A stretch of DNA of 64,000 nucleotides from Sulfurospirillum cavolei (lineage in GTDB: Bacteria > Campylobacterota > Campylobacteria > Campylobacterales > Sulfurospirillaceae). A model generated the notes under the pieces. That model had not been told where the DNA came from and made no database searches. It saw only the letters and a program-made list of their open reading frames with translations. The translations under genes were made by a program, and so were the position numbers. Below are positions 3,970-58,315 of the stretch, piece after piece (positions within the stretch are counted from its first letter, which is position 1; each line of letters begins with the position of its first letter). Location of the stretch: contig NZ_AP014724.1 of NCBI RefSeq assembly GCF_001548055.1, positions 682,001 to 746,000 of the forward strand, given 5' to 3'.

Positions 3970-5190
3970 ATGGCATTACGTATGACGGTTGACGAAGCCG
4001 ATTTCAAAGCGTTAGTCGGCGAGATTGAAGCGCAAGAAGGGTATAAAAAACCGATTGCGTTCGGTATCGCTCGAGTGGATCGCGGACAACTCAATCCGCA
4101 TAAAATTTTACAAGCCACGTTTCCCGTCGTAAACTGGAATGAAAATTTCGGTTCGGCGGCTATTTTGATCGCAGCGTTGCAAGAAAGCGGCATTGAGATT
4201 GATTTTAGCGGAAGCGAATACGTTTGCGACGTGAAGAAAAAGTTTGTTAAAAATGCGATGAACGCGTTTACGCCTTATCTAAATAAAGCATTCGGCGATG
4301 CTCATAAAAACGTGCAAGTGATTAAAACGCTCGATTGGATTGCGCAAACCGAAAAATTGAAAAAAGAGTATCGTATCGTGTTTCTTTTTGAAGACGATAA
4401 GCCGCTCAGCCCCGAATCGGTTTACCTCAAACTTTACGCTCTTTCAACGGGTAAAGCCGCTTTACGCTCTTTAAATCTCACCGGAGCGTTCGGCGTGCTT
4501 GAAAACGTCGCATGGTCGTTCGGACAGCCTATCGAGCTTGAATGGCTTCGTATGCATGAAGTCGAAATGAAGCTTTACGGTCATTATCCGATGATCGAGT
4601 CGGTCGATAAATTTCCGCGCTACCTCTCACATGTTATTCCTGCGGACAATACGCGCGTGCTAGACGCAAGTAAAGTTCGTATGGGAGCGCATTTACATCC
4701 GGGAACAACCATTATGCCCGGTGCAAGTTACGTCAATTTCAATGCCGGAACGACGGGTGCGGTGATGGTTGAGGGACGCATCAGCTCTTCGGTTGTCGTC
4801 GGTAAAGGTAGCGACGTGGGCGGCGGTGCGAGCATCTTAGGCGTTCTAAGCGGCACCAACGGCAATCCCGTCAGTATCGGCGAAAACACCTTGCTCGGCG
4901 CAAACTCGGTAACGGGCATTCCTTTGGGAGATGCATGTATCGTCGATGCGGGTATTGCGATTTTAGAGGGGACAAAAGTCGGTGTGAGCGCGAAAGAGCT
5001 CGTTAAAATCATCGAAGCCAACCCCAAAGCGAAACACTTGAAAAAAGCCGACAAAGAGGAGATCGTTTTCTTTAAAGGCTTAGACCTCTCAGGACTTAAC
5101 GGAATTCATTTCCGTCAAAACAGCGTCAACGGAATGATTCAAGCCGCACGTTCCAAACGCGAGATCAAACTCAACAGCGACCTTCACTAA
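3970..5190 (+). CDS. dapD: Tetrahydrodipicolinate N-succinyltransferase
   Basis: 406 residues, the long DapD form seen in Campylobacterota. It converts tetrahydrodipicolinate and succinyl-CoA to N-succinyl-2-amino-6-oxopimelate in lysine and meso-diaminopimelate synthesis. The C-terminal half (about 225-340) shows hexapeptide-repeat character (MGAHLHPGTTIMPGASYVNF followed by further GV/GA repeats), forming the left-handed beta helix. The start follows AAAAGGATAAAGAGAT, a good ribosome site, directly after mrp, so the two probably form one transcript. Confidence 0.9.
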   Translation: MALRMTVDEADFKALVGEIEAQEGYKKPIAFGIARVDRGQLNPHKILQATFPVVNWNENFGSAAILIAALQESGIEIDFSGSEYVCDVKKKFVKNAMNAFTPYLNKAFGDAHKNVQVIKTLDWIAQTEKLKKEYRIVFLFEDDKPLSPESVYLKLYALSTGKAALRSLNLTGAFGVLENVAWSFGQPIELEWLRMHEVEMKLYGHYPMIESVDKFPRYLSHVIPADNTRVLDASKVRMGAHLHPGTTIMPGASYVNFNAGTTGAVMVEGRISSSVVVGKGSDVGGGASILGVLSGTNGNPVSIGENTLLGANSVTGIPLGDACIVDAGIAILEGTKVGVSAKELVKIIEANPKAKHLKKADKEEIVFFKGLDLSGLNGIHFRQNSVNGMIQAARSKREIKLNSDLH

Positions 5191-5196
5191 CGCTTT

Positions 5197-5229
5197 CTAA
5201 AGCGAGCGAAAAATCCCCGCTCGCTTTAG
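5197..5229. terminator. Hairpin between convergent genes
   Basis: A perfect 12-bp inverted repeat (CTAAAGCGAGCG with its complement, 9-nt loop) lies between dapD and the convergent diguanylate cyclase gene and includes the latter's stop codon. No T-run follows on either strand, so it is a probable bidirectional terminator or mRNA end stabiliser rather than a textbook intrinsic terminator. Confidence 0.55.
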
Positions 5230-6443
5230 GCACAAATCAAACAATTTCTTCCGCTCTCTTTTGCCTTATAGAGCGCATCGTCCGCTAGTTTAATAATCTC
5301 GTGAGGCGTTTTACCTTTGAAAGATTGTGCCGCGCCGATGCTCACGGAGAGACGTTCTTTTTTAGGCTTCACGGGAGTCGGCGTTTTTTTAGGTGCTTGT
5401 TCGGGACGGTTTTGATCGCGAATGACAAACCCTCGTCTAAAAATGCGCTCCCGTACCTCTTCGAGTGCCATGATGCAATCTTCTCTCTTTTTACCGCTAA
5501 AAACGATCGTAAACTCTTCTCCGCCGTACCGATACGCCCTACCGCCGTTTTTTACCTGCGAAAGCTCTTTGGCGACCATTTTGAGCACTTCGTCGCCGAT
5601 GTCGTGTCCGAAAGTATCGTTAAATTTTTTGAAAAAGTCGATATCCACCATCGCTAGCAGATAATTCGAACCGATATGCAAAAAACGCTCTTCAAGTGCT
5701 CTACGTGCGGGAATACCGGTGAGGGTATCGATGTACGCCATCGTGTAAGCGTCTCTGACCAGCGCGCTAATGGCAATGAGCGAAGCCAGTAAAGAGTAGA
5801 GGATAAAGCCGTGCGCTTCTTGCCTAAAAAGAAACGATACGCACAATGCGGCAAGCATCCAAAAAGGTGCTTTTTGCGTGTAGGCGTTAAAGAGTAAGGA
5901 GACGAGAAAAATAAAAAGCAGCGCAATGACGACGATAATCACCGTAAAGTCGTTGGTTTGGGTCAGTTGATGCAAAAAAGAGGGTAAAAGCGTCGTGTTG
6001 AGTGCGGTTTGAAGTGCAGGCGAAAAATACACGAGAGCGGCATAGCTTAACCCCAAAATCGCAATCGCAATCGTGGTACGCAACGCACCGAATGCGCTAA
6101 AAAGTCCTCTTTCTTGCAAGGCATACAAGAGCAAATAGCCGATAGCACAACTCAAAGGAACGATGTGCCAAAACGCCGTTCCGCTCAGTTTGGTAAAAAA
6201 CGTATTGGGAAACGCCAAAATCAGGTTGAAAAAAAGAGGGAAGAGGAGTAATGCAAAGAGTTTGCTTTTATTAAAATAGACGCTTAACGCCAATGCCAAT
6301 CCTAAAAAAACAAAGGTGCTTTGCCATAAAAAATAGTACATGTAAGCAGGAATCAGCTCAAAATAAAGCGCGACGAAGCCTAGAAGAATTGCTCCTAAAC
6401 AAAGCGCGTTAAAGGTATAAAGTACCTCTTTCATTCGTTGCAT
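5226..6443 (-). CDS. Membrane-bound diguanylate cyclase (GGDEF)
   Basis: 405 residues. The first 230 or so are a series of hydrophobic segments (about 7-8 transmembrane helices, no known sensor domain). A GGDEF domain follows, with the active signature GGEEF (in YRYGGEEF), the DTLTGIP start motif and the usual SIGAA ending. It should make c-di-GMP from two GTP. A proline/lysine-rich insertion (near QAPKKTPTPVKPKK) interrupts the domain before the SIGAA strand and is unusual. It is separated from the upstream secretion operon by a strong terminator, so it is probably transcribed alone. Confidence 0.88.
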   Translation of the reverse strand: MQRMKEVLYTFNALCLGAILLGFVALYFELIPAYMYYFLWQSTFVFLGLALALSVYFNKSKLFALLLFPLFFNLILAFPNTFFTKLSGTAFWHIVPLSCAIGYLLLYALQERGLFSAFGALRTTIAIAILGLSYAALVYFSPALQTALNTTLLPSFLHQLTQTNDFTVIIVVIALLFIFLVSLLFNAYTQKAPFWMLAALCVSFLFRQEAHGFILYSLLASLIAISALVRDAYTMAYIDTLTGIPARRALEERFLHIGSNYLLAMVDIDFFKKFNDTFGHDIGDEVLKMVAKELSQVKNGGRAYRYGGEEFTIVFSGKKREDCIMALEEVRERIFRRGFVIRDQNRPEQAPKKTPTPVKPKKERLSVSIGAAQSFKGKTPHEIIKLADDALYKAKESGRNCLICA

Positions 6444-6527
6444 TGCATCCCTTCATCTCCTGTCATTCCGTATGATTTTACCATCTTTAGGCTTTGGTTT
6501 GAGACGGTAAAAGGTATCGGAAGCTTT

Positions 6528-6559
6528 AAAAAGCACGGAAGGAAATTCTTTTCCTTCCG
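6528..6559 (-). terminator. Rho-independent terminator of the secretion operon
   Basis: On the minus strand a perfect 10-bp stem (CGGAAGGAAA, loop AGAA, TTTCCTTCCG) is followed by TGC and five T residues. It sits 46 bp downstream of the stop of the VWA protein and closes the Slam-like/cargo operon. Confidence 0.85.
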
Positions 6560-6604
6560 CAATGAATGATTTTTACATGTAAAGAGAAAAGAGGGGAGTT
6601 AACT

Positions 6605-9600
6605 CTATTTTTTCCCGGCAAAAATACCCGCGGCAGATGAACCCGTTTTGGAAAGTGCCCACGTACCGCCGATCTCGTTAGCCGCAGGACCGTAAAAGCT
6701 TCCTTTGATCGATCCGGTATTATCCGTACCGTTCAATCCACCTGCAAAGCCGTTTCCGCTGATAGAGACCGCATTTAAATTGGTCGTCGCATAAGACGCG
6801 CCGCTTGAGGCGTAATTGACGTTCATCGTACCCGTAATCGTACCGCTTGCAAAATTTGCATTCATCGTATGTGTACCGTTCAAGGTTTTCAATGCGCCGC
6901 TTTCATAGCTCATACCTTGTACCATGCCGTTATAGGTTGCCGTTCCGCTTGATGGCATTGAGGTGGTCGGTGTCAATTTTCCCGCAATCCAACGTGACCC
7001 GTCAACGACCGTTTTGTGAGAAGCCGAGAGTTCGGTGCTCCACGTTCCCCATGAAAGATAGTTGTAGCTATCGTTTTCGCTCATGGTCGTTGCCGCATAC
7101 GTTGGAACGCTTCCCGAATCTTTCATCGCAACAAACGCATTTTGGTTGACGTATACGTTTGTATCGGTATAATCCGTCGTAAGCGTTCGATTGGTCGATC
7201 CGTCCGTAACCGTGATGGACGCTTTAACCTCTCCGGTTGAAGGTTTCAACGTCATTTGTACATCATCCGTCGTCGTACTGGTGTCGATCGCGACGGTGCC
7301 GGTTGAACGGTTGGCTACGAAACCTACCGCATGTCCAGACCAGACTTCGCCGTCGCTCGGCGTGTAAGATTTTGCGACGGATTTTGTATTGACATACCCG
7401 CTCATCATCATCGAACTTAAAGACGGTGTACCGCTTTCACTGTAGTACGTCGCCCCGAATGTTCCGCCCATACCGTTAGGATAAGCGTTTCCATAAAGTT
7501 GAAGCGTCGTCGTGTCACGCATAGCATCTTTGATGACTCTGGGTAGATTACTGCTTTCAGATGCGCTCAAACGACGTGTTTTAAACGTATAGTTTCCTGA
7601 AATTTCCAAAGCGGCTCGATCGATATCGCCGACAAAAATCGCCGTTCCTTCGGCACTATCCATCAATGCGTTCGTATCAAAACCATACACTTTACCCGTT
7701 GCCCAATTGACAAATAATTTCATCGTATCGGAAGCATAAGAAGTTTTTGTATAAGGAGAAACGACTCGTTCGCGAATATCGTAGGTAGAAACACCGCTCG
7801 TCGGAAGCTTGGAAGAAGAACTTAAACGCTCACCGTAATAGCCTTCAACCGTACTTGAACCGTTTTGCAAAATATACCTAAAGAAATCTTGATCGCCGTC
7901 GGCATGAAAAACGGAAGCCCCGCTCATATCTTGACCAAATATAGACGTTGCATCGCTAATCGAACCTTGATAATATTCCGTTCCTACGACGTGTGCCGCA
8001 CTTGCCGTATCGATGCTAAAGGTGCTATCGCTTTGGTTGGGATAGGTAAGCGTAAACGTTAGGATTTTACCGCTTGCGTCGCTTGACGCGGTGACGCTAC
8101 TAGGAGTTCGTACGCGCCAAACCGTACTGTCGATTTTGGAGACCATGCCGCCCGTCCATTTATTATCGGCGACCGCATCGTAAATAGCGTTTAAAACGGC
8201 ATCTTGAATATTGGATACGTCGGTTAAGCGCATATAAGACCCGCCCGTAGCATCGGCAATTTCAACGGCGGCATCTTGCATTTGTTGACCCGACGTCGAA
8301 GCATAGACGTTGGATGTTTGTCCCACGTTAATTTCCGAAGTGTCGATGAACACTATTTTCGCTCCGGCGGCAATCGCCAAGGCTTTGAGTTCTTTTTCAT
8401 TGACACTGTTTTGCCACGAAGGTGCATCTCCGAAAACGACGATGACTTTTTGAGCACCGGTTCTCCAATTGGTTACTTGTCCACTGGCAAGCGAAGTATT
8501 GCGCGGGGTTGGGGCACCTGAATCAATGACTTGCTGAATCGCGTAAAAGTTACCTTCTTCCCAATCGCCACCGCCTGACGCATACCATTGATTGATCGCG
8601 GTCGTGACCGCCGTATCGTTATTGGTAATCGGTTGGAGAAGTTGATAGGATGAGGTCGCCGTTTCACCGTATTCGCTCGGATCTCCGAGGTAACGCCCGA
8701 CACCGAACTGCGCGTTGACTTTGGAAAAACGGCTATCGGCGCGTAGGGCGTCTAAGATCGCTTGCGCATTGGTTTGAGCACTACCGACGAGTCCACCCAT
8801 ACTTCCGGTGTTGTCGGCTAAGAGAAAAATATCGACATCATGCTTGGCAAGCAATCGGTCAAGCTCAAGTTTTCGAGTTGTTTCGATGGTTTTTGTGGTA
8901 TCGACAACTTTGGTAGAGAGCGCATCTTTCAAATAGGCATCGGAAGACCATGATTCCATTATAGGCAGAGGCATAGTGTCGCTTTCTTTTGCGGAAGCAA
9001 GCAGTACAACAGGGGTTTCAATTTCGTACATTTCATAAGCAACTTTGTCTTTCTTGGTCGTTTTTTGATTATGTTCAAAATCAACTTTAATTTGATTGAC
9101 TACTTTTCTCAGTTTTTCAACATTATTGTTATAGATTATTTCCATTGCAGTAGATGCATATAATAATGGCTCGTTTGTCATAGGATTTTTAAGATAGTCA
9201 CTAGCGATATGATCATACATATCAAGACTGTTCAAAAATGTTTTTTTCAGCATAACATCTGCTTCTACTTCAATTCCCCAAAGTGTTGTTTTCATGTTTG
9301 CTTGAATGAATTTTTTATCTTGTTCTATACTTTTTCTCAAGTTTTGTATTGCCTGATTATTCTCATTTATTGCTAAACGAATTATGCTTTCAATTTCATC
9401 CGCATTTTTTGCATTTGCTAATTTCGCACTATAAAATGGATTTTTAAGACGGTCGGTAACCCCGTTGAGAATGAGATATTTTGCTAGTTCTCCTTCTGTT
9501 TGAATCATGTTTAAATAATTTTGATTGATTTCTCTTTTCTTGTCTAATGTAGCTTCATAGGTTTGTTCAACATCGTTGAAAGCACTTGCAAATCCAAAAG

Positions 9601-10102
9601 CAGGTCCAATGACAGGGGCTAAAGCTAAATCAGAAAGTGCTGTATTAAAATAATCTCTTACACTAGCTTCCCCCATTTGTATTTTTGCGGCTAACTCTCC
9701 GGTACTTTTTCCAGCATCGTATGCATTAATAGCTCCACCAACAAGCGTTGTTGTCGCTTTTAGGTTTAAGGTTCCTTTTAAATCTTTTGTTAATGTTTGT
9801 ATATTTTTTTCAACAGTTGATGCTCTGCTTTCAAGCTTATGCAATCCTTCTGTAGTGCTTTTAATGTTCTTATTTTCAATTGCTTTTTTGGTCGATGATA
9901 AATTTTTCTCTTTATTTCGTAGTTTAGTTTCCATATCTTTGATTTTTTCGTCAGATGCCTTCCATTCTTCCACTATCGCTGTCATATTTCCAATACCTTG
10001 TTCAATAAACCAAGTTGGATCAATAATATCAGCCGATACTCCTCCGCTCAACACCATGCACGCCGCTGCTGAAATGGCTATTTTTTTCATTGTATTTTTC
10101 AT
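6605..10102 (-). CDS. Large secreted VWA-domain protein with TbpB-like C-terminal barrel
   Basis: 1165 residues with a Sec signal peptide (MKNTMKKIAIS..., likely cut after VSA at about 24); no convincing lipobox. Residues 30-400 are helical and coiled-coil-like. A von Willebrand A domain starts near 425 with the MIDAS-type motif DNTGS at 430-434. A long Ser/Thr/Gly-rich beta region follows, and the last 110 residues resemble the beta-barrel domain of transferrin-binding protein B: GSFYGPAANEIGG near 1135 and a terminal GIFAGKK. That barrel is the address used by cargo of Slam (type XI) outer-membrane translocons, and a Slam-like gene lies 22 bp upstream in the same operon. A secreted or surface adhesin-like role is inferred. 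The 5' third of the gene is clearly more AT-rich than the rest. Confidence 0.75.
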   Translation of the reverse strand: MKNTMKKIAISAAACMVLSGGVSADIIDPTWFIEQGIGNMTAIVEEWKASDEKIKDMETKLRNKEKNLSSTKKAIENKNIKSTTEGLHKLESRASTVEKNIQTLTKDLKGTLNLKATTTLVGGAINAYDAGKSTGELAAKIQMGEASVRDYFNTALSDLALAPVIGPAFGFASAFNDVEQTYEATLDKKREINQNYLNMIQTEGELAKYLILNGVTDRLKNPFYSAKLANAKNADEIESIIRLAINENNQAIQNLRKSIEQDKKFIQANMKTTLWGIEVEADVMLKKTFLNSLDMYDHIASDYLKNPMTNEPLLYASTAMEIIYNNNVEKLRKVVNQIKVDFEHNQKTTKKDKVAYEMYEIETPVVLLASAKESDTMPLPIMESWSSDAYLKDALSTKVVDTTKTIETTRKLELDRLLAKHDVDIFLLADNTGSMGGLVGSAQTNAQAILDALRADSRFSKVNAQFGVGRYLGDPSEYGETATSSYQLLQPITNNDTAVTTAINQWYASGGGDWEEGNFYAIQQVIDSGAPTPRNTSLASGQVTNWRTGAQKVIVVFGDAPSWQNSVNEKELKALAIAAGAKIVFIDTSEINVGQTSNVYASTSGQQMQDAAVEIADATGGSYMRLTDVSNIQDAVLNAIYDAVADNKWTGGMVSKIDSTVWRVRTPSSVTASSDASGKILTFTLTYPNQSDSTFSIDTASAAHVVGTEYYQGSISDATSIFGQDMSGASVFHADGDQDFFRYILQNGSSTVEGYYGERLSSSSKLPTSGVSTYDIRERVVSPYTKTSYASDTMKLFVNWATGKVYGFDTNALMDSAEGTAIFVGDIDRAALEISGNYTFKTRRLSASESSNLPRVIKDAMRDTTTLQLYGNAYPNGMGGTFGATYYSESGTPSLSSMMMSGYVNTKSVAKSYTPSDGEVWSGHAVGFVANRSTGTVAIDTSTTTDDVQMTLKPSTGEVKASITVTDGSTNRTLTTDYTDTNVYVNQNAFVAMKDSGSVPTYAATTMSENDSYNYLSWGTWSTELSASHKTVVDGSRWIAGKLTPTTSMPSSGTATYNGMVQGMSYESGALKTLNGTHTMNANFASGTITGTMNVNYASSGASYATTNLNAVSISGNGFAGGLNGTDNTGSIKGSFYGPAANEIGGTWALSKTGSSAAGIFAGKK

Positions 10103-10124
10103 TGTTTGCCCCTAGTCTTTAATG

Positions 10125-11429
10125 TTAAAAATTTTTGGTCAACGTTAGCATCGTTTGTTGACGGTTATAGTCGTACATGTCGATGGTGGAACTGTTTTTT
10201 GTGTAGGTGTACGAGAGGGTCACGTTTGCCGCCCATTCTTGGATTTGGTAGTTGAGGTTGGCGGTTGCGTCAAAACGTTTATCGACTCTTCCCGTGGCAT
10301 ATGCCGCTTCGATGCCGTCGTAATCGGTTTTGCTATAACTTGGAGAGATATAAATGCTCCACTCGGCATTGATAGCATTAAAATAACCGACGTTGACGCC
10401 TTTAGAGTTGTTTTCAAAAGTTTGGACGCCCGAGTTTTCATGTCCTAAATAGCCACCGAACGTAACGTATGAATGGTTATCTACTAAATAGCGCAAAGAC
10501 GGCGAAAATGTGATGGCGTTACCGTCTCTATCGCTGTTATCGTAGTAGTGTTTCTTTTGAAGCGCAAGGCTGGAGATAAGTAAAAGTTCTTGGGAGAGTG
10601 CATAACTGACTTGCGGTACGATACCGTGGCTAAAAGAGTAATAATCTTTGTCGTGACCGATCTTAATGCGATTGACGACATAAGGCAGAGCAAACGTCCA
10701 ATCGCCTTCTTTATACCCAAACCCCGTCGAAAGGGAGAGATTGGTCGAGTCGTACGTATTGACTTTGCGGTAGTCGATCGTGCTGACGCCGATGCTGTTT
10801 TGCCATGACCATTCATCTGACATGTCATAACTATAATCCGCTCCCGCTTTAAGCGTTAACGCCCAATCTCGCGTATTTTTTGCATTTTGATCGAGGGTAA
10901 ACGGCAAGTCGTACATTAATACGGAGTCGATACTCGGTCCTTGATTGGCGTTGGTATCGTACATGTAGCCTGCGCCGACGTAAGCGTTCCATTTTTTAGG
11001 AGACGAAGCGTCGATAGTCGCTAAGAATCGATCGATATTCTCGCCGACTTTCGCCGGAGGATTTGCCGATTTGACGTCTTGAAGTAGACGTTTTGCTTTT
11101 GCTTGGTCTTTTTCCAAATAATACACTTCGGCTAACTCAAGCTTAACGCGTAGGGCGTTGGGTTCTTTCTCGAGCAATTCGGAAAAATAGGCTTCGCTCT
11201 CTTTTAATTTGCCCGTTTCTTTCGCCGACATCCCCAGTAAAAAAAGTCCTTGATTGGAAAGCGATTTGTCCGCATATGCAGGTGTTAACAACTCGTAAGC
11301 AATTTGCGGTTGATCGTTTTGTAAAGCCTCTTGCGAACGCACCAAAATACTTTTATCTTCTTGTGCAAGAAGATTCAGTGTTACTAAACTCATTAAAACC
11401 ATTATCTTTCGATACGAAACCCTCTTCAT
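10125..11429 (-). CDS. Slam-like (DUF560) outer-membrane translocon of a type XI secretion system
   Basis: 434 residues: a signal peptide, a TPR-like N-terminal domain (about 25-135), then a beta-barrel of alternating aromatic strands beginning at WNAYVGAGYMYDTNAN and ending in an aromatic C-terminal residue (TLTKNF), as in outer-membrane barrels. TPR plus a DUF560 barrel is the architecture of Slam, which moves proteins bearing a TbpB-type barrel across or onto the outer membrane. The next gene encodes exactly such a protein. An ordinary TPR-porin is the alternative. The start at 11429 follows AGAGGGG, and a TACAAT -10-like box lies upstream on the minus strand. Confidence 0.72.
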   Translation of the reverse strand: MKRVSYRKIMVLMSLVTLNLLAQEDKSILVRSQEALQNDQPQIAYELLTPAYADKSLSNQGLFLLGMSAKETGKLKESEAYFSELLEKEPNALRVKLELAEVYYLEKDQAKAKRLLQDVKSANPPAKVGENIDRFLATIDASSPKKWNAYVGAGYMYDTNANQGPSIDSVLMYDLPFTLDQNAKNTRDWALTLKAGADYSYDMSDEWSWQNSIGVSTIDYRKVNTYDSTNLSLSTGFGYKEGDWTFALPYVVNRIKIGHDKDYYSFSHGIVPQVSYALSQELLLISSLALQKKHYYDNSDRDGNAITFSPSLRYLVDNHSYVTFGGYLGHENSGVQTFENNSKGVNVGYFNAINAEWSIYISPSYSKTDYDGIEAAYATGRVDKRFDATANLNYQIQEWAANVTLSYTYTKNSSTIDMYDYNRQQTMLTLTKNF

Positions 11430-46673: not shown

Positions 46674-47789
46674 ATGGCTCGTATTAAATCGAAGTCAAAT
46701 GTAGGCGTATATAAAGAGGTGCTGGTTAGCGGCGATATATCTTACTACTACACGTATAAAGATACTGATGGCAAAAAATGCTGGGTTAAAATAGGTCTTA
46801 AATCAAACGGCTATTCAGAAAGAGATGCCGTTGTGCAGCGACGCAAAACTATGACAGAATTGGAAAATGCACAAGAACCCATTTATGTCAAAAAAAACAA
46901 ACGTCAAAAAGTTGTAACATTAAATCAACTGGCACATTATTATTTTGATGAAAAGAGGGAAATAAAAAATCATCGTGATGCGTATTTAAAATATACAAAT
47001 CAAATTGCTCCTATTCTTGGATTTGACAATATACAGACTCTTAAGTCTGAGAAAATTCAAAAATTCAAACAAATTCTTTTGGAAAGAGGGTATAAACCAG
47101 CATCCGTTAATTATTACTTGGCATTGCTCAAAGCCATCATTAATTATGGAATTTATACGGATCGCATCACTATCATCAATCCATGTTGTAAGGTTAGACT
47201 TCTAGCAATTAACAATCAGCGTAAAAGAATCTTGACCGAAGAAGAAATCGAGTCACTATTAAAGCGATTATCTCATCAGACTAAAGCATATTTATTTGTT
47301 TTAATTGCTATTTTTACAGGGGCAAGACCAAAAGCTATTTTGAATTTGCAATGTAAAAATATTGATTTCTCTTTCAACACAATCACCTTTATTGCAATGA
47401 AAAAAAGACCTCCATATTCTGTAGTTCTTCATCAAAGATTGGCAATTGCCCTACACAAATGGTGCAAAGACTTACGGCCTGAAGAATTTATTTTCTTTCG
47501 AGAAAATCCGTCTTTAAATAAAAGCGTTCATCTGTCATATTTAGGGATAAAAAAGTTTATTCAACCTAGTATGGACATACTCTTTAATAAAGGGCTACCT
47601 GCAAATGATAGGATTAATAAGGTGACGCTGTATACGCTAAGACACTCATTTGGGTCTTTATTGTCCAAGCGTGGAGCAAATGCTTTTGTGATTAAAGAAT
47701 TAATGAATCACTCAAAAATTGACATGACAGATCGCTATGTCAAAGTTTCGAGCCAAGAAACAAAAAAATATATTGACGCAATTTTATAG
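46674..47789 (+). CDS. int: Tyrosine recombinase/integrase
   Basis: 371 residues: an N-terminal arm-binding region, a core-binding domain (about 80-175), then the catalytic domain with Arg218 (TGARPK), Lys243 region, Arg323 (LYTLRHSF, where the usual His of HxxR is Tyr320), His346 (NHSK) and nucleophile Tyr355 (TDRYVKV). It presumably inserts the island into pabA/trpG. Confidence 0.92.
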   Translation: MARIKSKSNVGVYKEVLVSGDISYYYTYKDTDGKKCWVKIGLKSNGYSERDAVVQRRKTMTELENAQEPIYVKKNKRQKVVTLNQLAHYYFDEKREIKNHRDAYLKYTNQIAPILGFDNIQTLKSEKIQKFKQILLERGYKPASVNYYLALLKAIINYGIYTDRITIINPCCKVRLLAINNQRKRILTEEEIESLLKRLSHQTKAYLFVLIAIFTGARPKAILNLQCKNIDFSFNTITFIAMKKRPPYSVVLHQRLAIALHKWCKDLRPEEFIFFRENPSLNKSVHLSYLGIKKFIQPSMDILFNKGLPANDRINKVTLYTLRHSFGSLLSKRGANAFVIKELMNHSKIDMTDRYVKVSSQETKKYIDAIL

Positions 47790-47793
47790 GAGA

Positions 47794-48456
47794 ATGATGA
47801 TGTCAAGAAAAAAAAGTATATTAGATTGTTCACTTTTAGATATGCACAAATACTCAAAAACGGCATTTCAACACTTGTATGACAAATTAACAGATAATAA
47901 ATTTAAACGAGCCTATGTTGATAAAAATCACCCTATAAATGCTGTGACTGGAGTTTTATGGGATATTACACAAGGAAATGAAGAAATAGTCAAAATTATT
48001 TCTGAAATGGATAAAATTGACAATATTCGAGCAGAAAGCAGTATCTCAAAGCTCGAAAAAATAACTGATACTTGGATAAAAAAGGCTTATCGAAAACACT
48101 TTAGTGAAGGAACACAAATTAGCCAAACTATTTATTTGCGTTTCATAAATACAATTATGAACCATAATAATGAAGAAGGTGCTATGAATTTGCGATTTGC
48201 TGCAAAAAATCTTTTTGATAAAATTTATGGAACATACCGAGCAAGGCAGCATTCTATTGGCAAGTCTAACAAATTCAATGAGTTAATAGAACGTTACCCA
48301 AAACTTAATATTGACAAAGCATATCGCTATGCAATTATGACTGGTAAGTTTAATATTAACTCCGATGATATAGAAGAATTTGAATATATCTTAAAATTTG
48401 CTCTTTCGAGCAAAGAGAATTCAAATAAAAGGAAGTATATCATTAAAAAATGTTGA
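47794..48456 (+). CDS. Hypothetical protein next to the integrase
   Basis: 220 residues, lysine-rich and helical, no signal peptide, no recognised domain. ATG triplets at 47794, 47797 and 47800 follow TAGGAGA 4 bp after the integrase stop, so it is probably co-transcribed with int. Possible recombination or mobility accessory by position only. Confidence 0.7.
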   Translation: MMMSRKKSILDCSLLDMHKYSKTAFQHLYDKLTDNKFKRAYVDKNHPINAVTGVLWDITQGNEEIVKIISEMDKIDNIRAESSISKLEKITDTWIKKAYRKHFSEGTQISQTIYLRFINTIMNHNNEEGAMNLRFAAKNLFDKIYGTYRARQHSIGKSNKFNELIERYPKLNIDKAYRYAIMTGKFNINSDDIEEFEYILKFALSSKENSNKRKYIIKKC

Positions 48457-48466
48457 TGAAAGAAGA

Positions 48467-48490
48467 GAGGGGAAATTCATCATTCCCCTC
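48467..48490 (+). terminator. Hairpin after the integrase operon
   Basis: Perfect 8-bp stem GAGGGGAA/TTCCCCTC with an 8-nt loop, 10 bp after the stop; no T-run follows. Confidence 0.45.
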
Positions 48491-48567
48491 CTTGACAGAG
48501 TTACAAAAGATTTGGGTGATCTTTTGATGTGAGATTTTATTTTATAACTTCAATGAAGGATTGTCAA

Positions 48568-48900
48568 ATGAATGTAGGTCTTGAAAATCTTGAACTCCTA
48601 CCTCAGATTTTAGAAAAACTCACCTTGTTGGAAAAAAACTTGGAGAATTTTCATTCAAAACGATGGATGAATGTTAAAGAATTGAGCCATTATCTAGGAT
48701 ATTCGGAAGATCATATTTATAAACTCAAAGAAGATATTTTTTGTGAAGGCATCCATTTTTACAAAAGAGGTAAACTCTTTTTTGATCGAATCGAAATTGA
48801 TAAATGGGTTATTAACGGTAGCAATAATGATCAAAATGCACTTGCTAAAAAGCGGATGAATGAAATTTTGGATTCAGTTATCGGAAAAACAAAGCGATAA
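48568..48900 (+). CDS. Excisionase/AlpA-like HTH DNA-binding protein
   Basis: 110 residues from the ATG at 48568 (AAGGA 7 bp upstream). A coiled N terminus precedes a MerR/excisionase-type helix-turn-helix (WMNVKELSHYLGYSEDHIYKL ... FDRIEIDKWV). It may direct excision or regulate the island. Confidence 0.7.
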   Translation: MNVGLENLELLPQILEKLTLLEKNLENFHSKRWMNVKELSHYLGYSEDHIYKLKEDIFCEGIHFYKRGKLFFDRIEIDKWVINGSNNDQNALAKKRMNEILDSVIGKTKR

Positions 48901-48926
48901 TTTTTATAAGTAGAGAGGAAAAAAGA

Positions 48927-49181
48927 TTATTTCGTAGTTTCTTTAATTTGCGGAATCAAATCCCTCACCTCTAGCCCAAACTCGAAAGCTATTTTGTAGA
49001 GGTGTTCAAGGTTATAACTGACATCGTGTTTGCGAGTTTCAATTTTTGCGACATAGTTTGGTGATTTATGACCAAGAATTTGTGCTAAAGCTAATTGACT
49101 AATCCCACGTTTTATTCTTTCATTTTTGACATTTTCAACAATCTGATCCATAAAACGCTCAATCATTTTTTCCACAATCAA
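48927..49181 (-). CDS. XRE-family repressor
   Basis: 84 residues with a Cro/CI-type HTH (RGISQLALAQILGHKSPNYVAKIE). Transcribed divergently from the small-protein genes, with two palindromic sites in the gap. Likely controls itself and the divergent genes. Confidence 0.8.
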   Translation of the reverse strand: MIVEKMIERFMDQIVENVKNERIKRGISQLALAQILGHKSPNYVAKIETRKHDVSYNLEHLYKIAFEFGLEVRDLIPQIKETTK

Positions 49182-49192
49182 TCACCTTTGTT

Positions 49193-49258
49193 AAACACCT
49201 ATAAGTTGTTGAAATAGTAGTGATTAACGAGGTTTACAACAAACACTTATAAGTGTTT
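49193..49258. promoter_or_regulatory. Paired operators for the XRE repressor
   Basis: A perfect 18-bp palindrome AAACACTTATAAGTGTTT (49241-49258) and a partial copy AAACACCTATAAGTTGTT (49193-49210), centres 48 bp apart, sit between the repressor and the divergent gene. Confidence 0.7.
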
Positions 49259-49307
49259 AATAAGCCTTTTTTCGGTATTCTTTAACTACAAATAGTGACA
49301 AGGGTTG

Positions 49308-49553
49308 ATGATGAAAAAGATGGTTTTAGTGTTGTTAATCTTAGTAGGGTTTTTAGATGCGGCAGAAGTGGCAAAGAGTGTTACAACATGCTCCTTTAGC
49401 CGAAAACAATTAGCAGCTTTTGCGGATATCCCAATGGTGTGTTCAGGAGATTATAAAAACAATGCCTCAACGCAAGAGCTCTATGCTAAAGGTTGGAGAC
49501 TTGTTAATTCTTACACCCATGGTGGCGAAACGTATCTTGTATTTGAAAAATAG
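49308..49553 (+). CDS. Small secreted protein
   Basis: 81 residues with a signal peptide (MMKKMVLVLLILVGFLDA) and two cysteines (TTCSF, MVCSG) in the mature part that could form a disulfide; ends in a beta-rich segment. AAGGG precedes the start. Family unknown. Confidence 0.6.
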   Translation: MMKKMVLVLLILVGFLDAAEVAKSVTTCSFSRKQLAAFADIPMVCSGDYKNNASTQELYAKGWRLVNSYTHGGETYLVFEK

Positions 49554-49571
49554 TAGATTATAAAGGAGTCT

Positions 49572-49886
49572 ATGATGTTGTCGATGATTGTTGATTATCT
49601 TTTTTTACTGATTGCTAAAATCTTAATTGTTGCCTTTTTTATTGGACTTGGAGCATTAGCTGTTTTTCTAGTTTATTGGGGATTTATTGATTATGCGACA
49701 GCTATTAGAAAAATACAATCTATCTTGATGGGTGATGTGATGATGTTTTTTTCTCTTCTTTTACTTGTTGGATGTATGTTTCATACTCCTGATACAAAGA
49801 GTATTTCATCAAGAAAAAAGTTCAATACCAATAAATACCTCGATAGAGTCTTTTTTGAACATGATACAGGCAATAGGATGTTCTAA
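49572..49886 (+). CDS. Small membrane protein
   Basis: 104 residues with two hydrophobic helices (about 8-40 and 53-68) and a basic C-terminal tail. AAAGGAGTC precedes the start. Overlaps the next gene by one base. Family unknown. Confidence 0.6.
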   Translation: MMLSMIVDYLFLLIAKILIVAFFIGLGALAVFLVYWGFIDYATAIRKIQSILMGDVMMFFSLLLLVGCMFHTPDTKSISSRKKFNTNKYLDRVFFEHDTGNRMF

Positions 49887-50812
49887 TGAAACAGACACTT
49901 TTTCTTGTATCAAGCATTCTTGCACTCTCCTTTTTTAACGGTTGTGCCACAACCTCACAGCCAAGTACTGCATTACAACAAGCAACTTCATTAAAAGAGT
50001 ATATTGCTTTTAAACGAGGCTCTGAAACACTTAGTTATGCGGTTGTTGCAGAAAAAGAAAATCAAACCCTTATTGAATACCGCACGTATGATGAAGCAAT
50101 GAATGTTGCAGATGCTAGAGCGATGATGGATGTCCTAGATGATGCCAAAGGGTATTGTGAACTTATTGGTGGTCTTAGTATCTATGGTGATCAAGCTATA
50201 AAAGAAATCAATACTCATCCAACAGCACTTAGTCTTGATTATGTGAACTATAAAAGCACGATGCAAAAACAAGGCTTAGGTAAATTTGAAGGATTTTATC
50301 AATGTCACTCCTCTAAAGACGGCTTTGCAATAACGTTTATGAAAGATCATGTCGAAGTACGTCAAAGTGCTATTTTGGGAAATCAACGTGATTTAAAAGA
50401 GACCTATTCACGCTTTTACATGATTCAACACGATCACTTGCAAAGCCTTGGAGTAAAAACATGGCTAAAAAGCACAAAATACGCCCAATTTTTAACGAAC
50501 TACACTTCGTTCGAGGAAATACTCGGATTGGAGAAAAATAGCTCTATTTTGCCTTGGAGATACGAACGTATCCTTGGAGCCCATAAATATTGCACCTATT
50601 ACGGTGGAAAATTTTATGTTTCCAATGCTTTCACGCAATCTCAACCAATGAGCATAGATGATTATCTCTTCACTCGTATTAATGCAATGAGCTCAACGAC
50701 CATCAATATTTTCATGAATCAAGATACGTTCATTTGTAAAAATAAAGATGCAAAAAAAGCTTTTCGTTTGATACACAGTGATAAACAATTAGAATTTAAA
50801 CAAGGGGAATAA
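49886..50812 (+). CDS. Lipoprotein of unknown function
   Basis: 308 residues with a lipoprotein signal (FFNGC, Cys near 20). The mature part contains conserved-looking Cys (CELIG, FYQCHSS, KYCTYY, FICK) and no recognised family. TAATG-coupled to the membrane protein gene. Together with its neighbours it forms an envelope module under XRE control (inference). Confidence 0.65.
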   Translation: MKQTLFLVSSILALSFFNGCATTSQPSTALQQATSLKEYIAFKRGSETLSYAVVAEKENQTLIEYRTYDEAMNVADARAMMDVLDDAKGYCELIGGLSIYGDQAIKEINTHPTALSLDYVNYKSTMQKQGLGKFEGFYQCHSSKDGFAITFMKDHVEVRQSAILGNQRDLKETYSRFYMIQHDHLQSLGVKTWLKSTKYAQFLTNYTSFEEILGLEKNSSILPWRYERILGAHKYCTYYGGKFYVSNAFTQSQPMSIDDYLFTRINAMSSTTINIFMNQDTFICKNKDAKKAFRLIHSDKQLEFKQGE

Positions 50813-50831
50813 TTTTTCCCTTGTGTGTTTT

Positions 50832-50851
50832 AGAACAATTTGTTCTATAAT
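50832..50851 (+). promoter_or_regulatory. Promoter with overlapping palindrome
   Basis: AGAACAATTTGTTCT (7-bp arms around one base) overlaps a consensus TATAAT (50846-50851) upstream of the 40-residue protein, suggesting repression at the -10 box by an unidentified dimeric regulator. Confidence 0.55.
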
Positions 50852-50891
50852 TTTAAATGCATAAAACAAAAAAAACTATGAAAGGATAACT

Positions 50892-51014
50892 ATGACACTT
50901 TTTAATATCATCATCGGCACATTAGCATTTATCACAGCAGCTTTGGCAATCGCGAAGCTTAGATATGAACTTGGTTATTCAAAATACAGTCCATACTACA
51001 AAGAAAAAGCATAA
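50892..51014 (+). CDS. Single-span small membrane protein (40 aa)
   Basis: MTLFNIIIGTLAFITAALAI is one transmembrane helix, followed by a Tyr/Lys-rich tail. AAAGGA precedes the ATG, and promoter and terminator signals frame it, so it is probably a real gene. Function unknown. Confidence 0.6.
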   Translation: MTLFNIIIGTLAFITAALAIAKLRYELGYSKYSPYYKEKA

Positions 51015-51020
51015 ATCAAA

Positions 51021-51045
51021 AGAGGCATAAAAACCTCTGCTTTTA
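51021..51045 (+). terminator. Short terminator after the 40-aa gene
   Basis: AGAGG/CCTCT with an 8-nt loop, then GCTTTTA. A weak intrinsic terminator. Confidence 0.5.
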
Positions 51046-51071
51046 GATCCTCAAAAAAACATATCCAAAAA

Positions 51072-51400
51072 TTTTATTCGGACACTATTCACTAGTCGTT
51101 CATAATATGGGCATTTTATTCGAAAAAGCATCCTTTTTCAATCTTGCTTCACTATCTCTTTAGAGATATATCACTATTTTATTCGAAAACTAACACCACA
51201 CTATCGGACGTAATATATATGGCTGTTTTATTCGGAAAGAAAATTTTCCTACACTCCTATTCACTATCGTTCATATTATAAGCGTTTTCTTTACATGAAA
51301 TGTAATTTTATCCCTTTACATAACCTCTTTAGAGGTAATAGGGCTTTTCTTTACATATGAATAATTTTGTTATCAATTGTTATATATAAGCATTTTATTA
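51072..51400. repeat. Degenerate array of seven T-box/hairpin units
   Basis: TTTTATTCG starts units at 51072, 51114, 51177 and 51226; variants TTTTCTTTACAT at 51285 and 51345; TTTTATTA at 51393. Spacing is 42-63 bp. Units also share CACTAT (51083, 51150, 51172, 51199, 51262). Two units hold the same TTTA-loop hairpin (51154-51167 and 51323-51336) with one compensatory pair change. No gene is seen in the 450-bp gap between the 40-aa gene and hsdR. Confidence 0.6.
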
Positions 51401-51464
51401 ACAAGTTTATTAAAAAAATCAAACATATTGGTATTCATTTAGCTATAATCAGTATTAATTAACT

Positions 51465-53816
51465 ATGATTGGTAATTGGATACAGATGGGATATTCGGAA
51501 TCAGACACACGCTCAAAAATAATTGACCCTAAAATCAAGCAAAGTGGTTGGCAAGAAAACAGCATCATTCGTGAGTATCACTTCACAGATGGAAGAAAGC
51601 TCATTGGTAATAAACGAGGTAAAAGATACTTTGTTGATTATCTTCTCACTTTTAAAAATACCAACTTAGCCATCATCGAAGCCAAAGCAGAAGATAAAGA
51701 TCCACTGGATGGCTTACAACAATCTATCAATTATGCTGAAAAACTCAAAATTGATTTTGTCTATTCAACCAATGGGCATAAGATTTATGAACACTCTTTG
51801 ATTGAAGGCAAGGGAAGCTTTATTGAAGAGTATCCAACACCAAATGAACTGTTTGAACGAAAATTCGGTGTCATTGATAGCAAAAAAGAGAGCATTATCA
51901 CCTATCCATTTCACATTGAAGGCACTCTGAAACCTCGTTTTTATCAACAAATTGCTGTTCAAAAGACTATTGAAGCCATAGCAAACTATCAAGATAGAAT
52001 TCTTCTTACCTTAGCCACAGGCACAGGAAAAACCTACATTGCTTTTCAAATTGTATATCGCTTATTTCAATCAAAATGGAATAAAGACGGAAATGATAGA
52101 CGCCCTAAAATTCTTTTCTTAGCCGATAGAAATGTTTTAGCTGACCAAGCCTTTAACACCTTTAATCCATTGGAAAAAGACATTATAAGGCTCAATGGTA
52201 AAGAGATAAAAAAACGCAATGGTAAAGTACCGACCAATGCCAATGTATTTTTTGCTATTTATCAGTCCATTGCTGATTGTGTAGATATAAGTGAAGTTTC
52301 AGAAGAAGATAGTGAAGATGATGTGGGTGGTTATTATAGACAATACCCTAAAAACTTTTTTGATTTAGTAATCATTGATGAGTGCCATAGAGGAAGTGCA
52401 AACGATGAAAGCAGTTGGAGACATATATTAGAACATTTCAATAGTGCTGTTCATATAGGTTTAACTGCCACACCTAAAAGAGACGACAATGGCGATACTT
52501 ATAAATATTTTGGAGAGCCTATTTATGAATACTCTTTAAAAGATGGTATCAATGATGGCTTCTTAACCCCTTACAAAGTCAAACGCATTCAAACCAATAT
52601 TGATGAATACAAATTTGACCCCAATGATATTATCACCGGTGAGCTTGAAAAGCAAATTGTCACATTAGATGACTTTGAAAAAAATGTCATCATTCCAAAA
52701 CGAACTGAACTCTTAGCCAAAACGATTTTAGAAAATATCAATCCCTTAGATAAAACCATTGTCTTTTGTGTCAATCAAAAACATGCCATGGATATGAAAG
52801 TAGCCATTGATAGCTACAAAACTATCAAGGACAATCACTACTGTGTCAGGGTAACTTCGGATGAGGGAGAAATAGGACGAGCTTTCTTAGAAGCTTTTCA
52901 AAATAATGATAAAGATATACCAGCCATTCTCACTTCTTCAAAAATGCTCACCACAGGAGTGGATGCTAAAAATGTGAGAAATGTAGTTTTAACCGCACCT
53001 ATTCGCTCCATAACAGAGTTTAAACAGATCATTGGAAGAGGAACAAGGGTATATGAAGGTAAAGACTTTTTTACAATTATAGACTTCGTTGGTGCAACCA
53101 ATCTTTTTTATGATGAGAGATGGGATGGTATTCCTGAAAATCCAATACCTCTAACGCCGCCAAGTGGTGGAAAAGGTGAAGAAGAAACACCACCACCAAG
53201 AGGAGAAAATACTCCACCAGATAAGCCACAACCACTAAAAGATAAAGTAACCATTGATGTTAAAGGCAAAAAACTTAAAGTCATCAATATTGAAACAACC
53301 TATGTAGGAGAGGATGGAAGGCCTCTTAAAACAGATGCCTACTTAGAACTTCTTATCGGTATTTTGGGCAAATTTTATAACAATGAAGAAGAGCTTCGTG
53401 AGATTTGGAGTCATCCTAAAAATAGAAAAGACCTACTTCATAAACTAAGAGAAATGAATATCGATGAAGCGCAATTAGAAGACTTAAAGCAAATCTTTGA
53501 GGCTGAAAATAGTGATATTTACGATGTCTTAGCGCACCTTTCATTTAACCTTGACATTAAAACACGTAATGAACGAGTTTTAGCCGTTGAAAATTCTTCT
53601 TTTGTGGAAAAATACCACACTGAAAAAGCAAAACAATTTATCGAGTTTATCTTGGAACGCTATAAAAAAGATGGCGTTAAAGAGTTGGAAGAAGATAAGC
53701 TCAGTAAATTGATAGAACTGAGTGGCTTTGAGAAAAATGAACTTAAAATGTCTTTTGGAAATTATAATCTTAGAGATGAATATTTTGGGTTACAAAAAGA
53801 AATTTATAAGGATTAA
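51465..53816 (+). CDS. hsdR: Type I restriction enzyme R subunit
   Basis: 783 residues. Nuclease motif Asp58 ... Glu72-x-Lys74 (VDYLL, IEAKAED), Walker A ATGTGKT at 184-190, DECH box, and motif VI IGRGTRVYEG, as in EcoEI-type HsdR. A proline-rich linker (about 565-590) precedes the C-terminal domain. No good ribosome site is seen at 51465; 51486 (MGYSESD) is an alternative start. Confidence 0.92.
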   Translation: MIGNWIQMGYSESDTRSKIIDPKIKQSGWQENSIIREYHFTDGRKLIGNKRGKRYFVDYLLTFKNTNLAIIEAKAEDKDPLDGLQQSINYAEKLKIDFVYSTNGHKIYEHSLIEGKGSFIEEYPTPNELFERKFGVIDSKKESIITYPFHIEGTLKPRFYQQIAVQKTIEAIANYQDRILLTLATGTGKTYIAFQIVYRLFQSKWNKDGNDRRPKILFLADRNVLADQAFNTFNPLEKDIIRLNGKEIKKRNGKVPTNANVFFAIYQSIADCVDISEVSEEDSEDDVGGYYRQYPKNFFDLVIIDECHRGSANDESSWRHILEHFNSAVHIGLTATPKRDDNGDTYKYFGEPIYEYSLKDGINDGFLTPYKVKRIQTNIDEYKFDPNDIITGELEKQIVTLDDFEKNVIIPKRTELLAKTILENINPLDKTIVFCVNQKHAMDMKVAIDSYKTIKDNHYCVRVTSDEGEIGRAFLEAFQNNDKDIPAILTSSKMLTTGVDAKNVRNVVLTAPIRSITEFKQIIGRGTRVYEGKDFFTIIDFVGATNLFYDERWDGIPENPIPLTPPSGGKGEEETPPPRGENTPPDKPQPLKDKVTIDVKGKKLKVINIETTYVGEDGRPLKTDAYLELLIGILGKFYNNEEELREIWSHPKNRKDLLHKLREMNIDEAQLEDLKQIFEAENSDIYDVLAHLSFNLDIKTRNERVLAVENSSFVEKYHTEKAKQFIEFILERYKKDGVKELEEDKLSKLIELSGFEKNELKMSFGNYNLRDEYFGLQKEIYKD

Positions 53817-53818
53817 TT

Positions 53819-55570
53819 TTGAAGATAGAAAAAATAGTTTTAAATAATTTTAAATCATTTGACAAATTAACATTTGATTGTAATCAAAATTTGAATGTGC
53901 TAATAGGTGAAAACAATATTGGTAAAACAACAATATTTGATGCAATATTATTATGGTATTTTGGATATTCATTACTTATAACTGCTGATGGCAATTCATT
54001 TTACAAAAAGAACAACTACAATTCTTTAAATATAAATTTCAATAAACTTTTAATTTTTCGTATAGTTAATACAATCGATCTTTTTTTTGATCATAAACAA
54101 CCTTTATCTATTGCACTCATAGTCAATGATATGGGTACATCATATGAATTAAAAATAGAATTTGAAATGCCTACAATTGAAGATTCTTATATTAGAATTA
54201 GAAATCATCAATCATTAGAAGATTTTTATGCATTTGCTGAAAAATGCAAACAATCTGGATTAAAATTAAGAGATATTGTATCTATATCATTTGCAAAGCC
54301 TGTTTCATTTATTGAACGTGAAGAATTGTTTTTAAATAAAGGACAAATAGCAAGAAAATCTTATTTAGGAAAAAATTACGAAACATTAAGAAATAAGATA
54401 ATTAACACACAGGTTAATAGAAAATTCGACTATTTAGAACAGAAATTACAAAATATCCTTGGAGTGGAATGTAGTATATTTTATAAAAACAACAATAGAG
54501 ATGATGATGAATTTATTAAATTATTCATCAAACTTGGTACTCAAAAAGAAATAGATATTTCTTTAGTGGGCAGTGGAATTCTTCACATTTTTGAGATTTT
54601 TGCATCTTTATATGTAAAAGAAAAAAATGAAAATGGATTAAATATCATTTTAATAGATGAACCTGACTCTCATATTCATGCTGACTTACAAGTGAAAGTA
54701 TTAGAAGAATTACAATCAGAACAAAATAGACAAATTTTTGTCATAACACATAATGATAGGCTTATAGAAAAGACTAGTGATGGTGAATTATTTTATATAA
54801 ATCAGTATATAAAAGATACAAAGATATTAAAAGCATCTTCTATAGATGAATATCATTTAATTAAACAAGGACTTTCAAGTTTATTCCCAATAATAGAAGA
54901 AGATCGTACACCATTAATTATTACCGAAGGAAAAACTGATTGGAAACACATGAAAGCGGCATTAGAATATTTTCACACTATTAATAAATTCTCAATTTTA
55001 AATTTTTCTTTCTTTGAATACGAAAATGACCCACAAATGGGTGATTCTCAGTTACAAACTTTATTAAAAGAGTTAGCTAAAATTCCGAGAGAAAATATTA
55101 TTATTGGTATTTTTGATTGTGATACCGCGATCGGACAAAAATATTTAGATCCGTCGCACCAACAATTATCTGAAAAAGTATTCGCTTTTGCTATCCCTAT
55201 ACCTGATTACAGATCATATCATGACGGAATTAGTGTTGAATTTTTATACCCTGACAGTGATTTGAAAAAGATTGATAGTAATAATCGAAGGATTTATCTT
55301 TCTGATGAATTTTCAGATAAAGGACGCTTAATAGAAGATAAAACTATTAGTATTTTAAATGCAGACAAAATCAAGGCTAAGATTTCAAGAGAAAAAAGCA
55401 TAGTGATAGATAGTAATGTAATTGATTTAGATGAACATAATATTGCACTAACGAAAAATGATTTTGCAGAAAATGTTCTTTATAAAAAGCAAGGATTTGA
55501 AAATATGGATTTTTTAGGATTTGAAGACATTTTTAATAACATTGAAGCTATTATTGAAAGAAGAATATAA
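53819..55570 (+). CDS. OLD-family ATPase with TOPRIM nuclease domain
   Basis: 583 residues, TTG start 2 bp after hsdR. AAA/ABC-type ATPase with Walker A GENNIGKTT (30-38), a Walker B/D-loop region (IDEPDSHIHADL), and a C-terminal TOPRIM (ITEGKTD, then FDCDTA). This is the architecture of OLD and GajA nucleases used in phage defence. More AT-rich than the hsd genes around it, so it may be a later insertion into the operon. Confidence 0.85.
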   Translation: MKIEKIVLNNFKSFDKLTFDCNQNLNVLIGENNIGKTTIFDAILLWYFGYSLLITADGNSFYKKNNYNSLNINFNKLLIFRIVNTIDLFFDHKQPLSIALIVNDMGTSYELKIEFEMPTIEDSYIRIRNHQSLEDFYAFAEKCKQSGLKLRDIVSISFAKPVSFIEREELFLNKGQIARKSYLGKNYETLRNKIINTQVNRKFDYLEQKLQNILGVECSIFYKNNNRDDDEFIKLFIKLGTQKEIDISLVGSGILHIFEIFASLYVKEKNENGLNIILIDEPDSHIHADLQVKVLEELQSEQNRQIFVITHNDRLIEKTSDGELFYINQYIKDTKILKASSIDEYHLIKQGLSSLFPIIEEDRTPLIITEGKTDWKHMKAALEYFHTINKFSILNFSFFEYENDPQMGDSQLQTLLKELAKIPRENIIIGIFDCDTAIGQKYLDPSHQQLSEKVFAFAIPIPDYRSYHDGISVEFLYPDSDLKKIDSNNRRIYLSDEFSDKGRLIEDKTISILNADKIKAKISREKSIVIDSNVIDLDEHNIALTKNDFAENVLYKKQGFENMDFLGFEDIFNNIEAIIERRI

Positions 55571-55574
55571 GTCT

Positions 55575-58278: not shown

Positions 58279-58315
58279 TATGCGGATAACTAAAATATTT
58301 TAAAAGGCAGGTATT

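Follow-up and report, generated by a model that had tools for sequence, protein, structure and literature searches.

Two adjacent genes on the minus strand of the window (by which we mean the whole analysed stretch of 64,000 nt from Sulfurospirillum cavolei contig NZ_AP014724.1) encode a predicted outer-membrane exporter and, after a gap of 22 bp (10103-10124), its long presumptive cargo (Table 1). The complete PF04575 SlipAM profile (positions 1-288 of 288) was matched by exporter residues 147-434 with a score of 90.1 bits (cut-off 22), and a profile search of the whole 2.7 Mb genome detected exactly one SlipAM protein, the product of this gene. The N-terminal part scores 28 bits with the TPR_Slam domain, less than the cut-off of 35.2, and periplasmic TPR repeats are recognized by TPR_6 and TPR_19, both at or above cut-off. 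The combination of TPR repeats and a DUF560-like barrel in the original prediction is thus borne out over the full profile, and the protein does not fall into an unrelated TPR-porin family. Comparisons below are mostly with L002, the corresponding locus of the metagenome-assembled genome Sulfurospirillum sp. UBA4058 (G398).

Table 1. Features of the exporter-cargo locus, in window coordinates; aa, amino acid residues.
Feature	Position	Strand	Remarks
T11SS/Slam outer-membrane protein (exporter), 434 aa	10125..11429	(-)	PF04575 match, single copy in genome
Exporter parts			Signal peptide; TPR region (~45-125); SlipAM barrel (147-434, C-terminal Phe)
Cargo, 1165 aa, Sec-type signal peptide	6605..10102	(-)	ORF and profile matches
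Signal peptide, aa 1-24, likely SPI	10031..10102	(-)	First 19 residues common to L002 (84% identical)
Exchangeable N-terminal module, aa 25-384, predicted all-helical	8951..10030	(-)	No recognized family
VWA region, aa 385-640	8183..8950	(-)	VWA_4 match at 428-627; 52% identical to L002, dS saturated
Divergent region, aa 641-740	7883..8182	(-)	64% identical to L002, dS saturated
Constant beta-rich region ('pedestal'), aa 741-1048	6959..7882	(-)	90% identical to L002
TbpB-type C-terminal barrel, aa 1049-1165, presumed export signal	6608..6958	(-)	PF01298; 93% identical to L002
Terminator-like hairpin, 12 pairs, T-rich tail	6534..6561	(-)	Retained in L002

The cargo ends in a stretch of 117 residues that matches the entire PF01298 TbpB_B_D profile (1-126 of 126; 53.5 bits, cut-off 26), and this is the single TbpBBD of the genome, adjoining the single SlipAM. 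Among solved barrels, the closest by sequence is that of meningococcal GNA2132/NHBA (E 1.4e-8, residues 1044-1165), and the cargo scores 73.3 bits with NCBIfam NF041636, 'Slam-dependent surface lipoprotein', just below the cut-off of 80. An AlphaFold2 run on the whole cargo with a two-sequence alignment yielded a low pLDDT of 34; the eight-stranded architecture is predicted from sequence. By position and conservation, residues 741-1048 appear to match the 'pedestal' of the 2025 census of T11SS cargo (PMC12282271). As judged by eye, the signal peptide has an SPI-like cleavage site, between GGVSA and D. The sole cysteine of the cargo, Cys15, which is present in L002 too, leaves the mature protein without cysteine; it is located too early for a usual lipobox, and the SPII lipobox characteristic of NF041636 is not seen by eye. 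Lipidation appears unlikely, with Cys15 leaving some doubt. The stem and the T-run of the hairpin that closes the pair are kept in L002, with substitutions. The gene pair and its spacing, the TbpB-like tail of about 110 residues and the terminator were thus all recovered as originally predicted, and at the level of sequence, the two genes are confirmed as a genuine type 11 (Slam-type) pair.

The VWA domain expected in the cargo was found as well, by a VWA_4 match scoring 29.1 bits against a cut-off of 27. It contains the MIDAS-like residues DNTGS (430-434) and GGD (511-513); the third MIDAS acid, in GGD, is present in the window VWA but not conserved in that of L002. The N-terminal module is of foreign composition within the window, with a GC3 of 0.23 compared to 0.48 in the rest of the cargo and 0.44-0.57 in the window genes outside the low-GC island described below. 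AlphaFold2 applied to the module alone produced helices only, with low confidence (pLDDT 49), and a hydrophobic stretch spans residues ~154-176. The coiled-coil nature originally ascribed to the cargo N-terminus remains tentative, composition and this low-confidence helix prediction being what speaks for it. A Foldseek search of the PDB gave no match at E <= 0.001, the best hits, Vipp1 (E 0.07) among them, being coiled coils of a generic kind; family profiles assigned the module to no recognized family, and tblastn found no homologs in plasmids and phages. In the 396 other Campylobacterota genomes, only three weak matches were obtained (E 0.002-0.004), each covering a different short stretch and one containing stops. 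Identification of the module as a pore-forming toxin, considered on the basis of the helical profile, the hydrophobic stretch and an NCBIfam match to MakA, was rejected, the match being at chance level (E 0.5).

The L002 contig, of 160 kb, contains an uninterrupted cargo frame. As in the window, the locus is flanked by histidine kinase and response regulator genes at one end and by GGDEF, dapD-like and Mrp-like genes at the other. The exporters share 96% amino acid identity (dS 0.38, omega 0.06), and the genes flanking the pair have dS values of 0.4-0.95. Within the cargo, the common N-terminal 19 residues are followed by window residues 20-384, which show no significant similarity to L002 residues 20-368, then by the VWA and divergent regions, where synonymous sites are saturated, and finally by residues 741-1165, which are 90-93% identical overall (dS 0.76 for 741-1048 and 0.34 for the barrel). 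Because residues 20-384 are unrelated while the exporter and residues 741-1165 are nearly identical, and the VWA is saturated at synonymous sites, this comparison identifies the N-terminal block as apparently exchangeable, carried by a C-terminal export chassis that stays constant, with two alleles seen in the one pair of loci compared. The low-GC3 stretch of L002 spans both the module and the VWA, to about residue 700. On the simplest reading, recombination took place separately in each lineage, with one junction immediately after the signal peptide and the right-hand one within the VWA or beyond it. We regard this swap of the N-terminal module between relatives as a stronger finding than the novelty of the VWA. 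The jump in composition inside the cargo gene could also be expected of a functionless recombination chimera, in a decayed or chance arrangement, but this is very improbable given the intact frames in both genomes (1165 and 1153 aa), the purifying selection on exporter and barrel (omega 0.06-0.08), and the retained operon layout and terminator.

The module of L002 carries a CHAP domain (PF05257; 37 bits, cut-off 26), in which Cys109 and His169 align with those of a solved CHAP protein. CHAP is the fold of many peptidoglycan amidases and endopeptidases.

The pair is flanked by genes for a GGDEF protein, a histidine kinase and a response regulator. In at least 13 other genomes of the genus, a conserved gene encoding a 261-aa protein precedes the GGDEF gene in place of the pair, and the histidine kinase and response regulator are also found at other sites that lack it; the pair therefore occupies what, from these gene orders, appears to be a variable slot. 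It lies outside the obvious low-GC island of the window (46.7-61 kb). That island (46674-61033; GC3 of 0.15-0.35 compared to about 0.5) holds, as read from sequence, an ORF resembling an integrase and what look like type I restriction-modification genes. In L002, the terminator of the cargo gene is separated from the GGDEF gene by a hipBA-like pair (L002:9661-11318) that the window lacks. Neither a TonB receptor gene nor iron genes adjoin the window pair, and a role in iron acquisition is not supported by its neighbors. The best-known T11SS cargo bind heme or metals (PMC12282271), as would an ordinary nutrient- or metal-binding cargo similar to TbpB or hemophilin that had accreted an N-terminus and a metal-binding VWA. 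Such an identity is improbable here: the neighborhood is one of signaling genes, and the export end stays constant while the CHAP or helical module varies.

Among 397 Campylobacterota genomes, SlipAM was detected in 38 (about 10% of those sampled) and TbpBBD in 31. The two co-occur in 21 genomes, compared to about 3 expected (hypergeometric p 2e-17), and in 17 of these 21, they are encoded within a few kb of each other on one strand. The TbpBBD cargo of the phylum are mostly FecR-TbpBBD proteins beside SlipAM, often accompanied by a CHASE2-like sensor gene, a label read from sequence and not from a domain scan. The VWA-TbpBBD architecture is restricted to two of the 397 genomes, those of the window and L002, and no plasmid match covered both domains. 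The loci combining a SlipAM outer-membrane protein, at least one FecR-TbpBBD protein and a CHASE2-like gene of ~710-740 aa (L066-L105, about 20 genomes, e.g. L076:7708-11169 and L088:3765-11105) look like a surface-sensing T11SS family that is unmentioned in the T11SS literature cited here. They resemble the window pair in that TbpBBD cargo and SlipAM are neighbors in the same genus, but differ in the FecR N-terminus, the usual CHASE2-like neighbor and a mostly weaker SlipAM match (about 22-56 bits). Two further loci depart from the common pattern. A 479-aa OmpA-domain protein (L075:3394-4833) ends in a TbpBBD barrel, an unusual architecture for T11SS-type cargo; and in G363 (L066:5191-6817), two small TbpBBD lipoprotein-like genes adjoin a SlipAM gene whose score, 208 bits, is much higher than elsewhere in the phylum; acquisition from Pseudomonadota is likely.

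The census of T11SS cargo comprises about ten architectures, in none of which a VWA or CHAP domain is joined to the barrel (PMC12282271). The VWA-barrel fusion is absent from it, and the proposal of a new cargo type stands. The companion claim, that no such system had been described in Campylobacterota, holds in part. Slam-related sequences were reported in all proteobacterial clades by Hooda 2017 (PMC5449769), whose searches included the epsilonproteobacteria, and the SlipAM frequency given above also counts against the claim; epsilonproteobacteria were left out of the neighborhood analysis in that work, and no Slam-related sequence was reported in Campylobacter. T11SS-type loci of Campylobacterota have hardly been examined before, and the cargo architecture described here is not in the published census.

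In its general layout, the window pair resembles the Slam1/Slam2-TbpB/HpuA systems of Neisseria, where the gene for a TPR plus SlipAM-type outer-membrane protein likewise neighbors a cargo gene whose product ends in a TbpB-type barrel. The window cargo differs in being probably not lipidated, in its roughly twofold length, in the VWA and exchangeable N-terminal module, and in its host phylum, Campylobacterota. With HrpB-HrpC/hemophilin of T11SS subcluster 1B, it shares one C-terminal TbpBBD, an SPI-type signal and a single outer-membrane protein; in contrast to these, no heme-binding handle was recognized in the window cargo, and the effector block consists of a helical or CHAP module and the VWA. 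In the reconstituted Slam1-TbpB system, the C-terminus is the Slam specificity signal and the cargo moves unfolded with Skp (PMC9090332), and HrpB-HrpC exemplifies T11SS export of soluble cargo (PMC8406197). By homology to these systems, Sec would deliver the window cargo to the periplasm, as its signal peptide suggests, where it would be kept unfolded as in Slam1-TbpB and HrpB-HrpC. The TbpB-type barrel, probably together with residues 741-1048, would then address the cargo to the SlipAM pore, which, being homologous to Slam and HrpB, would pass it outside unfolded; there, it would fold and be either released or displayed. The working part would be the N-terminal block, that is, module 20-384 and the VWA, replaced between relatives by recombination. 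The helical module of the window protein may perhaps bind to, or insert into, the surface of another cell.

Taken as a whole, the locus is probably a two-gene Slam-family secretion system whose modular cargo is exchanged rapidly and most likely serves to contact or attack the envelopes of neighboring bacteria; this role is favored because the module of the relative is an amidase-type CHAP domain. The nearest relatives of the cargo VWA in the phylum are two proteins with type I-like RTX features, L145 and L146. Both have a related VWA_4 domain, but RTX repeats of type I style replace the TbpBBD barrel, and no SlipAM is adjacent. L145 is a 589-aa protein with an RTX-like tail, as recognized by eye, and similarity between its N-terminus and the window module was looked for and not found. 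In L146 (locus 4391-10251), the VWA-RTX ORF overlaps an ORF for a phage-type lysozyme and adjoins genes for an LprI lysozyme inhibitor and an OEP; L146 is likely a type I exported wall hydrolase with its own inhibitor. Judging from these sequences, the layout of a wall hydrolase, a VWA and an export signal appears to occur with two different export signals, which supports, by analogy only, an envelope-directed effector role for the window and L002 cargo.

The VWA can equally indicate adhesion. The cargo could be an exported adhesin, a VWA-tipped surface protein attaching to a surface, mineral or partner cell, in which the N-terminal parts are diversified antigenic or ligand-binding heads and CHAP is an add-on for wall binding or remodeling. 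The MIDAS-like DNTGS and GGD of the window VWA agree with this, as do the presence of VWA domains in surface adhesins such as CglB, the occurrence of adhesins among known T11SS cargo, and the DUF1194/vWA proteins encoded near marine T11SS pores, for which a part as adhesion or sensor partners has been proposed (PMC12282271). We nevertheless consider an adhesin somewhat unlikely, as the CHAP of L002, with the Cys and His present, appears to point to catalysis, and the third MIDAS acid is not conserved in L002.

A more specific version of the effector role would make this T11SS a 'reversed' polymorphic toxin, with a C-terminal export tag, swapped N-terminal warheads (a CHAP amidase or a helical membrane- or receptor-active module) and a VWA for docking. 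As in polymorphic toxin systems (PMC3482391), a constant trafficking part is joined to a recombining effector part, one allele of which is of the peptidoglycan hydrolase type; here, however, the orientation is reversed, with variation at the N-terminus and the constant part at the C-terminus, two alleles are represented, and there is no adjoining immunity gene or cassette array. A candidate toxic-effector domain, CHAP, is present in L002, and none was recognized in the window module. No immunity-like gene was found beside the window cargo, with 22 bp of spacing upstream and 161 bp downstream and no gene separating exporter, cargo and GGDEF genes, and the hipBA pair that occupies the position between cargo and GGDEF genes in L002 is not an evident immunity gene. 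This absence weighs most heavily against a classical toxin, although an outward-acting wall hydrolase that is exported unfolded might need no immunity gene. We hold the reversed-toxin version to be plausible but rather unlikely and retain, as the preferred reading, the broader one of an exchangeable cargo directed at neighboring envelopes.

Most known T11SS/Slam cargo are Pseudomonadota proteins for host interaction and metal capture. In Campylobacterota, a system that keeps the tag and swaps the effector would extend T11SS to a new phylum, and the cargo swap would serve as a natural experiment to locate the address within the cargo. There are hints that the exporter may deliver interchangeable effectors, and such swapped effectors would suggest that T11SS is able to carry enzymes aimed at cell walls.
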